Shown piece by piece: positions 12,352 to 15,682 of a DNA stretch of 35,674 bases. The stretch comes from Actinomycetota bacterium (GTDB lineage Bacteria > Actinomycetota > Actinomycetes > Nanopelagicales > Nanopelagicaceae): positions 1 to 35,674 of the forward strand of contig SYAM01000038.1 of the NCBI GenBank assembly GCA_005787645.1, given 5' to 3'. The translations under genes were made by a program, and so were the position numbers. Within the stretch, counting starts at the first letter, position 1. Each line of letters opens with the position of its first letter. The notes under the pieces were generated by a model that did no database searches, was not told the origin of the DNA, and saw nothing but the letters and a program-made list of their open reading frames with translations.

Positions 12352-12645
12352 TTAATTTTTCTTTTTACCAATCAGACGGATAAATAAATACATCACTAGA
12401 CCCGTGGCAATCACGCCAATCACGCCAGCAATTCCTACAGAGAGTCTCTCATTCTCGATTCCCGATACTCCGTAGTCAGCCAAAGCCGAGCCAGCAACCG
12501 CCGATTCTTGGGCCGAATCGATAAATCCAAGATCGATTGCAACCTTCTCTAAACCGTCTGGGGAGGAGGAGGCATAGAACGAGAAAAAGCCAGCAATCAC
12601 CAATGCGATTGCAATTCCAACAAGGTAGAAGCGCCTATTCTTCAT
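12352..12645 (-). CDS. PDGLE-domain small subunit of nickel/cobalt importer
   Basis: This is a 97-residue protein with two hydrophobic helices (about residues 6-26 and 70-92) and an extracytoplasmic loop between them containing the SSPDGLEKVA motif that names the PDGLE domain. PDGLE proteins occur with or fused to CbiM/NikM and take the place of CbiN/NikN, helping load or translocate the metal. The gene starts inside the cbiM stop (ATGA overlap) and is followed directly by cbiQ. Length and topology fit the family. Whether it should be called cbiN or nikN depends on the substrate. Confidence 0.88.
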   Translation of the reverse strand: MKNRRFYLVGIAIALVIAGFFSFYASSSPDGLEKVAIDLGFIDSAQESAVAGSALADYGVSGIENERLSVGIAGVIGVIATGLVMYLFIRLIGKKKN

Positions 12646-13295
12646 TTTCGAACCTTGAGCATTCCAAAAACTAGATCTGGTCGAGTCTTGAGTATTGCTC
12701 CGACGGTGAGCGTAGTAATGATTGCCTCACCGATTCCAATCAGCAGATGGGTTGTGAACATAGCTGCGAAAACAGTCGATGCTGCGAAGGTTCCCTGCCC
12801 ACCGATTGCATATTGAATACTGAAAAAGGTTGCTGCAAGCGGCACAGAGATAAATGCACCAACTGCAGAACCAATAAGTACCGAAGTGCGCGTGTATCGA
12901 AAAATTTTCCGCATTAACACGAAGGCGCCGTAGCCTCCCCACACTCCAACCACGGACATGTTGAAAACATTTAGACCAAGTGCGGTCAAGCCTCCATCAG
13001 CGAAGAGCAGCGCTTGGATCGCCAACACAACGGTCAGGGCGAGCGAGGCCGCATGTGGTCCCACCAGCACCGCGGCCAGAGCGCCCCCAAGTAGATGGCC
13101 AGAGGTACCAGCGGCTACCGGAAAATTAATCATTTGGCCGGCGAAGATAAAGACCGCTACCAACCCAACCAGGGGGGCGGCTCTCTCATCGAGCTTCTCC
13201 CGGGCGGCCCGCACCGAATAGCCCAAGCCAGTGGCGGCCAGGGCGGCTGAGGCTGTGGCTGTCGGGATATTGATGAAGCCATCAGGGATATGCAT
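12642..13295 (-). CDS. cbiM: Nickel/cobalt ECF importer, substrate-binding M subunit
   Basis: The 217-residue membrane protein binds the metal. It starts MHIPDGFI, the CbiM/NikM N-terminus whose Met1 amino group, His2 and further histidines coordinate the ion. Further blocks are FPVAAGTSGHLLGGALAAVLVGPHAA, containing the second conserved His, and the FADGGLTALGLNVFNM segment. About six to seven helices are visible. It is the first gene of the operon. The ATG has no Shine-Dalgarno sequence and lies 6 nt after a TAATCT -10 box, so it is probably translated from a leaderless mRNA. Substrate specificity between nickel and cobalt cannot be read from the protein, but the upstream Nur-like palindrome supports nickel. 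Confidence 0.94.
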   Translation of the reverse strand: MHIPDGFINIPTATASAALAATGLGYSVRAAREKLDERAAPLVGLVAVFIFAGQMINFPVAAGTSGHLLGGALAAVLVGPHAASLALTVVLAIQALLFADGGLTALGLNVFNMSVVGVWGGYGAFVLMRKIFRYTRTSVLIGSAVGAFISVPLAATFFSIQYAIGGQGTFAASTVFAAMFTTHLLIGIGEAIITTLTVGAILKTRPDLVFGMLKVRK

Positions 13296-13330: not shown

Positions 13331-13356
13331 CCTGAAATGCGGCGCACAGGCTATAT

Positions 13357-13381
13357 CAGGTGCGGAAAATTGTTCCACCTG
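13357..13381. other. Imperfect hairpin between the uxa cluster and cbiM
   Basis: CAGGT-GC-GGAA, an AATTG loop and TTCC-ACCTG form a bulged stem of nine pairs. It lies 24 bp after the last stop codon of the UxaA cluster, on the transcript going into the cbiM promoter. It lacks a T-tract, so it may be a weak or Rho-assisted end, or an RNA 3'-stabilising stem. Confidence 0.35.
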
Positions 13382-13404
13382 CTCTGGCAGAAAATCTCTA
13401 ACCG

Positions 13405-14586
13405 TTATTGAGTTGAACCGTACAGTCTCGAGAGATTGAACTCTCGGTGGCCACCTCGCTCGGCTGCGGTCAGTTTCCCATTAGCGACATCAACAATCTC
13501 TGCAAAGATGCGTTCACCAACCTCTGCGAGCGTTTCAGTGCCATCAGCAATAGTTCCGGCATTTAAGTCGATCAGATCTGGGAGTGCAATTGCCATCTCA
13601 GTGTTGGTTGCCGCCTTAATGGTTGGGATGACAGCAGAACCAGTTGGTGTGCCGCGACCAGTGGTGAAGACCGTGATATTGACATCGGCTGCAGCAAATC
13701 CAGTCAATTGCTCGATGTCATGCCCTGGAGTGTCCATGAAGTAGAGACCCGGCTCCGTGGGGACATATGCATAATCGAGCACCCCTGTAAACGGGGCGTT
13801 CCCCGCTTTCTTGGCAGCGCCGAGTGATTTCTCTTCGAGAGTGGTTAAACCGCCTTCGATATTCCCACGGCTGGGTTGCGCTCCTCGAATATCAATTCCC
13901 TCATAGGTGATGGAACGCTCATATCGAGCGACGACATCAATAATCGCTTGCCCAACTTCAGGTGTTTTTGCACGCGCAGCGAGTAGATGTTCAGCACCAA
14001 GAATCTCCATAGTTTCTGCGAGTATCGAGGTGCCTCCCAATTCCACAAATTTGTCGCTGGCAACTCCGAGCGCAGGATTGGCAGTAATTCCCGAATATGC
14101 ATCTGAACCGCCGCATTCGAGACCTAGCACTATCGCGCTCCATGGTGCGCTCTCACGTTTGATGGATGTAACCAGAGGAAAGACTTCCGAGACCGACTCC
14201 GCGACGAGTTTTCGCAAATTATCAAAGCCACCTGAATCTTTTAAGGTCAAATAAGCAATGGGCATCTCGCGTTTGGCTCGCGCCGCTTGCACGATCTCTT
14301 CCTCTACTGCTGACCCCACGCCAATCACGATCGTCGCCCCCACATTTGGATTGACTGCGAAACCGGAAAAGACTCGATGAATGCGATCCCAATCGCTATC
14401 GATTTCACCACTCCAGTCATGGGCAACCGAGGTAATTACTGTTTGAGCGGGGTGGCTTACCCGCACCTCTTCAGCAAGTTGATTGAGCGCATTATGTAGC
14501 GGGAGGATGAGGATGTAGTTTCGAAATCCCCACTTTCCATTTTTTCGCAGAAAGCCAGTAAGTAGAGATGGAGTAGAGATACTCAT
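13405..14586 (-). CDS. UxaA/GarD-type dehydratase, large subunit (C-terminal-motif paralogue)
   Basis: The 393-residue protein belongs to the altronate/galactarate dehydratase and sulfolactate lyase superfamily (UxaA, GarD, SuyB). It starts with the family opening GFLRKNGKWGFRNYILILPLHNALN. It keeps the second-half motifs: LECGGSDAYSGITANPALG, DTPGHDIEQLTGFAAADVN and TTGRGTPTGSAVIPTIKAATN. The first-half metal/active-site blocks are missing: where family members have H-x-x-GC and GLGCE it has VAHDWSGEID and GVGSAVEEE. The paralogue encoded just upstream has the opposite pattern. It shares one base (TAATG) with that gene. Substrate is unknown; sugar acids or sulfolactate are the family precedents. 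Confidence 0.85.
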   Translation of the reverse strand: MSISTPSLLTGFLRKNGKWGFRNYILILPLHNALNQLAEEVRVSHPAQTVITSVAHDWSGEIDSDWDRIHRVFSGFAVNPNVGATIVIGVGSAVEEEIVQAARAKREMPIAYLTLKDSGGFDNLRKLVAESVSEVFPLVTSIKRESAPWSAIVLGLECGGSDAYSGITANPALGVASDKFVELGGTSILAETMEILGAEHLLAARAKTPEVGQAIIDVVARYERSITYEGIDIRGAQPSRGNIEGGLTTLEEKSLGAAKKAGNAPFTGVLDYAYVPTEPGLYFMDTPGHDIEQLTGFAAADVNITVFTTGRGTPTGSAVIPTIKAATNTEMAIALPDLIDLNAGTIADGTETLAEVGERIFAEIVDVANGKLTAAERGGHREFNLSRLYGSTQ

Positions 14587-15392
14587 TACACGCTCCGCAC
14601 CATACGAGGAACGACGATATTTCCAATCTTATTTCTCTCGGCCTTGCTCGCTTCGCCGTTGGCGACTACGAATAATTTCTCAAGTAATTGCTCGGGCGAG
14701 GTACCGCTCACACAATCGAAATCATCGATTAGTGCCTGGTGTAGAAGGGATTGAGCGTTAGCAATGGTGACCACTGGAATCAGCGGAAGTCCGGTGGGGG
14801 GTTGATTACCATCAGGGAATGAGGCAATTACATGGGCCTTTTCGCGGACAAGTTTGGCAAAATTTCGAGAAGGCTCTTTGAAATCATTAGCGATCACTAG
14901 TGAGTGTCCTGCCTTTGTAACGAGATCTCCAAAACCATCGAGAAATCTCGCTTCAGGGTTTCCTTCAACGCCAATCACTAAGTGATCAAGGGGAGCCTGC
15001 GGAGACTTAACGTGAAGCTGGCGCGCCGCTGCAACGCTAAGTTCAAGTGCCCCAGCCATACCCGCGCTCTCTTGAATTACAACATATCGCGTCTGGGGAA
15101 ATTTAACTGCAATGCTGTCGGTAAGTTCATTACCTTGGATGGTTTCGCACCCCAGTCCGAGCACGAGGGTGGATTGGACATTTGGGTGCCCAGCGAGAGC
15201 AACAAAGAATTCATTTACTCCAGCAACATCAGGCCCGATAATCCCGCACCCATGCTGATGTGAAAAAGTTATTGCGCCTACCTCTTCAGCAACTTTCTTA
15301 GAGAGGTGAGTTGAGCAGACCACCGATGGAAGAATCAATTGGAGACTTCGAATGCCAACCCCTCGCGAGTTATTTGCGTAACCAGTAATCAT
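14586..15392 (-). CDS. UxaA-type dehydratase, shorter paralogue (N-terminal-motif subunit)
   Basis: The 268-residue protein begins GYANNSRGVGIRSLQLILPSVVC, the same opening as the downstream 393-residue protein. It keeps the first-half motifs HQHGCGIIGPD and GHPNVQSTLVLGLGCETIQGNEL. Its second half is shortened and degenerate: EGNPEA replaces ECGGSDA, and ASFPDGNQPPTG replaces TTGRGTPTG, while the overall strand pattern and the VVANGE-SKAERN tail still align. Its start overlaps the SAF gene by 4 bp (ATGA) and its stop overlaps the large paralogue by 1 bp. I infer that it forms a hetero-complex with the larger paralogue; by itself it should not be active. Confidence 0.8.
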   Translation of the reverse strand: MITGYANNSRGVGIRSLQLILPSVVCSTHLSKKVAEEVGAITFSHQHGCGIIGPDVAGVNEFFVALAGHPNVQSTLVLGLGCETIQGNELTDSIAVKFPQTRYVVIQESAGMAGALELSVAAARQLHVKSPQAPLDHLVIGVEGNPEARFLDGFGDLVTKAGHSLVIANDFKEPSRNFAKLVREKAHVIASFPDGNQPPTGLPLIPVVTIANAQSLLHQALIDDFDCVSGTSPEQLLEKLFVVANGEASKAERNKIGNIVVPRMVRSV

Positions 15393-15682
15393 CCGGTTGG
15401 CTCCGTAGATACTCGATCGCCAATCACATTGTGGGTATGCGCATGAGCTCCACGAACTATTGGAAGATAAGCATGGCCCATCCGTTCGCCATATTTGATG
15501 ATGGGGTCGCCTTTTGCAATATCTACTAGTGCAATCTTGTGGCCACGAGGGATTATGGTCTTCACCTCTAATATGGATGCGATATCACTCTGTTCGATTC
15601 GCATTCCAACAGGAAGTTCTTGCAAGGCGATTGCGATGTTGTCTCTAGCGTCTAAGACAATCAAGGAATTCACTCGTGCCAT
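15389..15682 (-). CDS. SAF-domain small subunit of UxaA-type dehydratase
   Basis: This 97-residue protein matches the N-terminal SAF domain of UxaA/GarD or the separate SuyA subunit: LDARDNIAIALQELPVGMRI, then IPRGHKIALVDIAKGDPIIKYGE-MGHA and a final GAHAHTHNV segment. The domain lids the active site, and its histidines (in VRGAHAHTHNV) are candidates for substrate or metal contact. It is the first gene of the cluster. Its ATG has no Shine-Dalgarno sequence and lies 6 nt after TAAAGT, suggesting leaderless initiation only 7 nt beyond the glnA terminator U-tract. The three genes overlap end to end. Confidence 0.85.
   Translation of the reverse strand: MARVNSLIVLDARDNIAIALQELPVGMRIEQSDIASILEVKTIIPRGHKIALVDIAKGDPIIKYGERMGHAYLPIVRGAHAHTHNVIGDRVSTEPTG

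Follow-up and report, generated by a model that had tools for sequence, protein, structure and literature searches.

The window, by which we mean the whole stretch of 35,674 nucleotides that was analysed, comes from an actinobacterium of the family Nanopelagicaceae. Its minus strand carries three genes, C, B and A, that lie head to tail with overlapping ends (4 bases are shared by C and B, and 1 by B and A):

Gene C, 15389..15682, minus strand: SAF-domain protein of 97 aa, the separate N-terminal domain of UxaA/GarD (Pfam)
Gene B, 14586..15392, minus strand: protein of 268 aa with an intact GD_AH_second domain (C26, H45, C49, C82, E83, Q107) and a shortened, degenerate C-terminal domain
Gene A, 13405..14586, minus strand: protein of 393 aa with a degenerate GD_AH_second domain (PLH, HDWSG) and an intact GD_AH_C domain (C158 GGSD, TTGRG)

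In Pfam searches, A matches GD_AH_second at 59.5 bits and GD_AH_C at 311.1 bits. B matches GD_AH_second at 83.9 bits, and GD_AH_C by its tail only (15.7 bits, below the cut-off of 26.8). PF04295 and PF20629 are thus both above their Pfam cut-offs in the one chain A; B passes for PF04295 only. C matches SAF at 18.5 bits, below the cut-off of 21, and matches the SAF end of the GarD model, too; it is the separate SAF protein said by the initial annotation to complete the set. None of the three reaches the threshold of the galactarate dehydratase equivalog TIGR03248 (cut-off 730.85; A 228.2, B 25.5 and C 38.8 bits), and no other PF04295 protein was found in the window's genome. UxaA and GarD of E. 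coli combine SAF, GD_AH_second and GD_AH_C in a single chain. The same three domains are present here, with the same motifs in total and, in A and B, the same fold (6u7l). In the E. coli enzymes, however, all four cysteines of the family and both halves lie on one chain, whereas here the halves are on different chains and SAF is on a third.

AlphaFold models were made of the single chains (A: pLDDT 80.9, pTM 0.85, from 19 sequences; B: pLDDT 86.5, pTM 0.86, from 20 sequences). The model of A matches GarD (6u7l) along its whole length (Z 38.0, rmsd 2.6, 337 residues aligned), and that of B matches across both domains (Z 19.3, rmsd 3.5, 234 aligned). The latter value comes from an aligner that re-scored Foldseek's list; Foldseek alone gave no significant match of B in the PDB (best E 0.012), and phmmer found none among PDB sequences at E up to 1. 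Since the modelled B spans both domains of GarD, it appears to be a miniature two-domain protein and no mere fragment. The initial annotation was right that the shorter protein lacks the blocks present in the longer one, but the model portrays it as a reduced version of the whole. Confidence is low at residues 41–60 of B and at 160–168 and 228–249 of A, all of them conserved catalytic segments; the alignments behind the models are shallow and there is no control model, and the low values would suit an absent partner.

Division of the conserved residues

B carries the motifs HQHGCG (residues 45–50) and GLGCE (79–83), A carries ECGGSDAYSG (157–166) and TTGRGTPTG (308–316), and neither chain has the other's blocks. 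The locus had been read at the outset as a three-gene split with complementary loss of motifs, and that description is borne out. So is the claim that A and B are paralogues of one superfamily, with shared UxaA/GarD domains and fold. The opening they were said to share is present in both (A 11–22, B 4–15), but it is spaced as G-x8-G-x-R and not as G-x-x-x-x-x-G-x-R. In an alignment that includes GarD and UxaA of E. coli and one actinobacterial relative of the one-chain type, domain 2 of B reads PSVVC, HQHGCG and GLGCE, and that of A reads PLHNA, HDWSG and GVGS. In the C-terminal domain of the same alignment, A carries ECGGSDAYSGITANP and TTGRGTPTG; B is shorter by some 110 residues there, and has FPDGNQPPTG at the second place. 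Five domain-2 residues are gone from A and kept by B: three cysteines, the glutamate of GLGCE and one glutamine. Of the four cysteines of the family (GarD 144, 179, 215 and 288), three are on B and one is on A, so that no one chain holds them all.

This division is constant among orthologues. C26, C49 and C82 each occur in 24 of 24 B proteins, and no cysteine is among the commonest residues (four at most per column) of A in these columns. C158 occurs in 23 of 23 A proteins, and no cysteine is among the commonest residues of B in this column. Some of the loci are perhaps near-duplicates; the sets omit the matches in L014 and L015 and also the A gene of locus L029, truncated where its contig stops. 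For trees and column counts we used 8 A and 8 B proteins (of about 25 each), 12 relatives (L111 was left out), 8 of 16 haloarchaeal records, and four proteins that we take to be SuyB-like, a label assumed from their missing cysteines (plasmid records say ‘UxaA family hydrolase’). The relatives have cysteine at all four columns (12/12 each). A has it in 0/8 at each domain-2 column and in 8/8 at the fourth, and B in 8/8 at each domain-2 column and in 0/8 at the fourth. At 77 positions conserved in at least 11 of the 12 one-chain or large-subunit relatives (23 in domain 2, 54 in the C-terminal domain), A keeps 10 and 50, and B keeps 16 and 6; six positions are kept by neither. The altered domain 2 of A is itself constrained, P29, H31, H56, D57 and W58 being invariant in A. 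Judged from these alignments, A and B are paralogues of the UxaA/GarD family, each without the active-site half that the other keeps.

According to a study of D-arabinonate dehydratase (PMC6336799), four cysteines are conserved across the superfamily, except in sulfolactate sulfo-lyase, and are proposed to be ligands of ferric iron. By their order and conservation, we read these as the four columns counted here.

Distribution and gene neighbourhood

All 20 loci found among genome contigs (L020–L039, all titled as actinobacteria) have the order C, B, A, with C upstream of B in every one; A is truncated by a contig end in L029. Among 296 genomes of the window's family, A occurs in 49 and B in the same 49, and they are never apart. 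A follows B directly, on the same strand, in all 49, the matched ends lying –11 to +20 bases apart. Orthologues of B were accepted from 137 bits (the score of a partial gene in G070); below this lie five proteins of a second family, X (68.9–111.8 bits), and cross-matches to A or to SuyB-like chains, at under 40 bits. Orthologues of A score at least 355 bits, and the next match, at 263.5, is SuyB-like. In a phylum-wide draw of 396 genomes, the only strong full-length match to B outside the order was in G653, and a class-wide draw of 149 genomes around G653 added G810. Both genomes, distant members of the Actinomycetota, show the C-B-A order and divide the residues in the same way.

Family X comprises B-like proteins of 343–374 aa in five genomes, with the same deletion in the C-terminal domain, a C-terminal extension and, mostly, no cysteines:

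L093:3534-4658, family X
L094:3020-4123, family X
L095:2789-3820, family X
L096:3383-4507, family X
L097:3410-4186, family X, partial

These genes have no A nearby and lie beside a sugar ABC transporter (and in L093 also a mandelate-racemase-like enzyme); the family is possibly a non-catalytic offshoot of B. Many genomes of the window's family have a SuyB-like pair, mostly in place of the triple, which is a possible hint of sulfonate use by freshwater actinobacteria. G653, in addition to its triple, has an open frame of 755 aa (L125:2136-4403) with a SuyB-like C-terminal half; it may be over-extended in GC-rich DNA. Lastly, a metagenome-assembled contig titled Bifidobacterium breve (L022, CAMAPN010000017.1) carries the triple at 67–86% identity to the window and in the same neighbourhood, and the title looks wrong.

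In 9 of the 20 loci, two genes come after A on the opposite strand, a mannitol-dehydrogenase-family gene and then uxaC, their identities being taken from the representative L020. Neighbours were annotated through representatives of neighbour clusters only. The best NCBIfam match of the first L020 gene is fructuronate reductase, below cut-off; the second matches glucuronate isomerase at 484 bits (cut-off 387). uxaC (PF02614) occurs in 30 of the 296 genomes, and 29 of these are among the 49 with A and B (Fisher p 6e-26, kinship ignored); in 13 of the 29 it lies no more than 8 kb from A. The galacturonate route is uxaC-uxaB-uxaA. Linkage to uxaC and the reductase points to the triple as the altronate dehydratase of this route, which is its most likely activity in the lineages that have the linkage.

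Twenty of the 49 triple-bearing genomes are without a detected uxaC, and the window's own, 88.9% complete, is among them; neither a uxaC match nor a linked reductase was found in it. In L020, the reductase, uxaC and a third gene separate A from the next gene shared with the window (12642-13295); all three are absent from the window. What the window has is a scar:

Scar, 13349..13405, plus strand: ~55 bp that align with the 3' end of a fructuronate/tagaturonate-reductase-like gene, the one located after A in L020; end points approximate

The gene after the scar is presumably cbiM-like. L022 also has the reductase, uxaC and third gene at this place; the third gene has no Pfam match, and by eye is alpha/beta-hydrolase-like. 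The only Mannitol_dh protein of the window's genome is 30% identical to the L020 reductase. Linked sugar-acid genes, proposed as a check on the original reading, are to be found beside A in relatives, but in the window only as the remnant of a reductase. Having lost this linkage, the pathway may be decaying in the window's genome, and B (or A) might then be a decaying gene, or else an artefact of gene calling. We consider this extremely improbable: dN/dS of the three genes against the close relative L020 is 0.07–0.21, and an intact B adjoins C and A in all 20 loci, except where a contig stops. Together with the invariance of the split residues in A and B orthologues, these ratios mean that the locus is neither chance nor a gene-calling error.

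Other triples have other neighbours. Loci without linked uxaC adjoin rhamnulokinase and a class II aldolase, an FMN-dependent dehydrogenase or an alpha-L-fucosidase. In G653 and G810, the triple has aldehyde dehydrogenase, glycerate kinase and a histidinol-dehydrogenase-like gene for neighbours. With sugar-gene neighbours as varied as these, the substrate is probably not uniform. In G810, the histidinol-dehydrogenase-family gene (L123:8470-9753) is divergent to C-B-A, and a glycerate kinase gene lies after A. The histidinol-dehydrogenase family has a relative in the sulfonate dehydrogenase HpsN, and the substrate of the G810 triple may be one other than altronate.

A counterpart in haloarchaea

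A search of plasmids with a distant B returned paired matches in haloarchaea. The two proteins, hA and hB, have an identical distribution: each is present in 16 of 72,556 plasmid records, and the records are the same. In each of the eight records examined, three neighbouring genes, all labelled ‘UxaA family hydrolase’, lie in the order A (393–398 aa), SAF, B (340–393 aa). Q246 and all three cysteines of domain 2 are gone from hA, but 50 of the 54 C-domain positions are kept; hB retains these cysteines together with E216 and Q246, and has 19 of the 54. The cysteine at column 288 is present in 8/8 hA and in 1/8 hB. These clusters (Haloterrigena turkmenica pHTUR02 and others) resemble the window in having three components and the same division of residues. 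They differ in gene order, A-C-B as against C-B-A, and in that their B has a nearly full-length, degenerate C-domain. We found no description of them in the literature searched. Co-occurrence, another check suggested for the initial annotation, is seen for A and B in the same 49 of 296 genomes, for the triple in G653 and G810, and for hA and hB in the 16 haloarchaeal records.

Trees put A and hA apart, and AU tests reject none of the joinings tried (A+hA, p 0.19 for the C-domain and 0.47 for domain 2; B+hB, 0.35; A+B, 0.39; hA+hB, 0.56 and 0.31). The differing gene order and the differing deletions in B weakly favour two origins, one actinobacterial and one haloarchaeal. That a duplicated UxaA/GarD enzyme became an obligate A:B heteromer by complementary loss twice, once in each group, is a tentative proposal, which we think somewhat doubtful.

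Recurrence of the pattern bears on the view that A and B are separate enzymes or proteins, acting on different substrates and brought into one operon by chance. Each chain does fold alone in prediction (pLDDT 80.9 and 86.5). But reciprocal loss of residues in two lineages with different gene orders, a single SAF subunit for both proteins, and perfect co-occurrence make such independence very unlikely.

A probable composite site between B and A

The best explanation, to which we give a probability of about 0.68, is that the products of C, B and A together make up a single, three-subunit sugar-acid dehydratase of the UxaA/GarD type, with an active site built between B and A. An ancestral two-domain enzyme would have been duplicated. 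In copy A, the C-terminal half of the active site would have survived and the cysteines of domain 2 disappeared; copy B would have retained domain 2 but little of the C-terminal domain. On its own, neither chain would be expected to be active, and the A:B pair would rebuild one complete site, to which B would bring three cysteines, the GLGCE glutamate and one glutamine, and A the fourth cysteine, GGSD, the central E/N/K residues and TTGRG. C would be the SAF part of the complex. Iron at the composite site is presumed, as is the complex itself.

How such a site might be assembled depends on the architecture of the family. In a homodimer with sites between its chains, duplication would allow the site made of domain 2 of B and the C-domain of A to survive while the other died. 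Were the sites within chains, the residue pattern would presumably leave no working site. Pairing of A and B like that of GarD protomers would thus require an active site between two chains throughout the family. In the model, A has its own degenerate domain 2 where the family normally has this domain; should the site of GarD lie within a chain, an A:B pair of the GarD type would need a domain swap to join its halves. GarD is said to dimerize via its second domain, and to have a Ca site in its C-terminal domain.

A different account of the locus comes from two-gene UxaA types such as SuyAB, the (R)-sulfolactate sulfo-lyase, which, as here, have a separate SAF subunit. SuyB-like chains resemble A in lacking the domain-2 cysteines (0 of 12 cells in four sequences), and six loci in the window's family (L098, L099, L100, L101, L105 and L106) have SAF and a 388 aa partner with no B beside them. 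SuyAB is described as an Fe2+-dependent enzyme (PMC11382572), so an A-like chain can serve in a working enzyme without the three cysteines. By this account, A and C would be a complete two-subunit enzyme of the SuyAB type, and B an accessory (a stabilizer, iron loader or regulator); cysteine-poor relatives of B, the five of family X, do exist without an adjoining A. The SuyAB type, however, has KCGESD and PTGQG, and forms a separate clade. A has the dehydratase-type CGGSD and TTGRG, falls outside that clade, and is never without B in 296 genomes; the motif residues of B are invariant, which a mere stabilizer would not need. We therefore regard an accessory B as unlikely. It is this counter-case that sets its standing, and that of the composite site, where we have placed them. 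The obligate hetero-complex of the initial annotation fares accordingly: complementary loss, strict co-occurrence, adjacency and conservation of the retained halves speak for it, and the SuyB-like relatives speak against a four-cysteine site being necessary.

Another parallel is the L-fuconate dehydratase of Paraburkholderia mimosarum, called ‘heteromeric’ in PMC6336799 and by that description a UxaA/GarD enzyme of two gene products, against three here. No three-subunit UxaA enzyme was found in the literature searched, mostly at listing level, in keeping with the original remark that this is not a described type. The three-gene split is more general than was first seen, and is described in none of that literature.

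The locus is a clear example of complementary loss splitting an enzyme between subunits that are paralogues, seen in freshwater actinobacteria and in haloarchaea. To annotate either A or B by itself as an altronate dehydratase is probably mistaken. The triple makes a structural question of the UxaA/GarD family testable: is the active site contained in a single chain or formed by two, and which of the cysteines bind iron? If the A:B heteromer has indeed arisen twice, the active site of the whole family would lie between two chains, with an iron site of three plus one cysteines bridging them.
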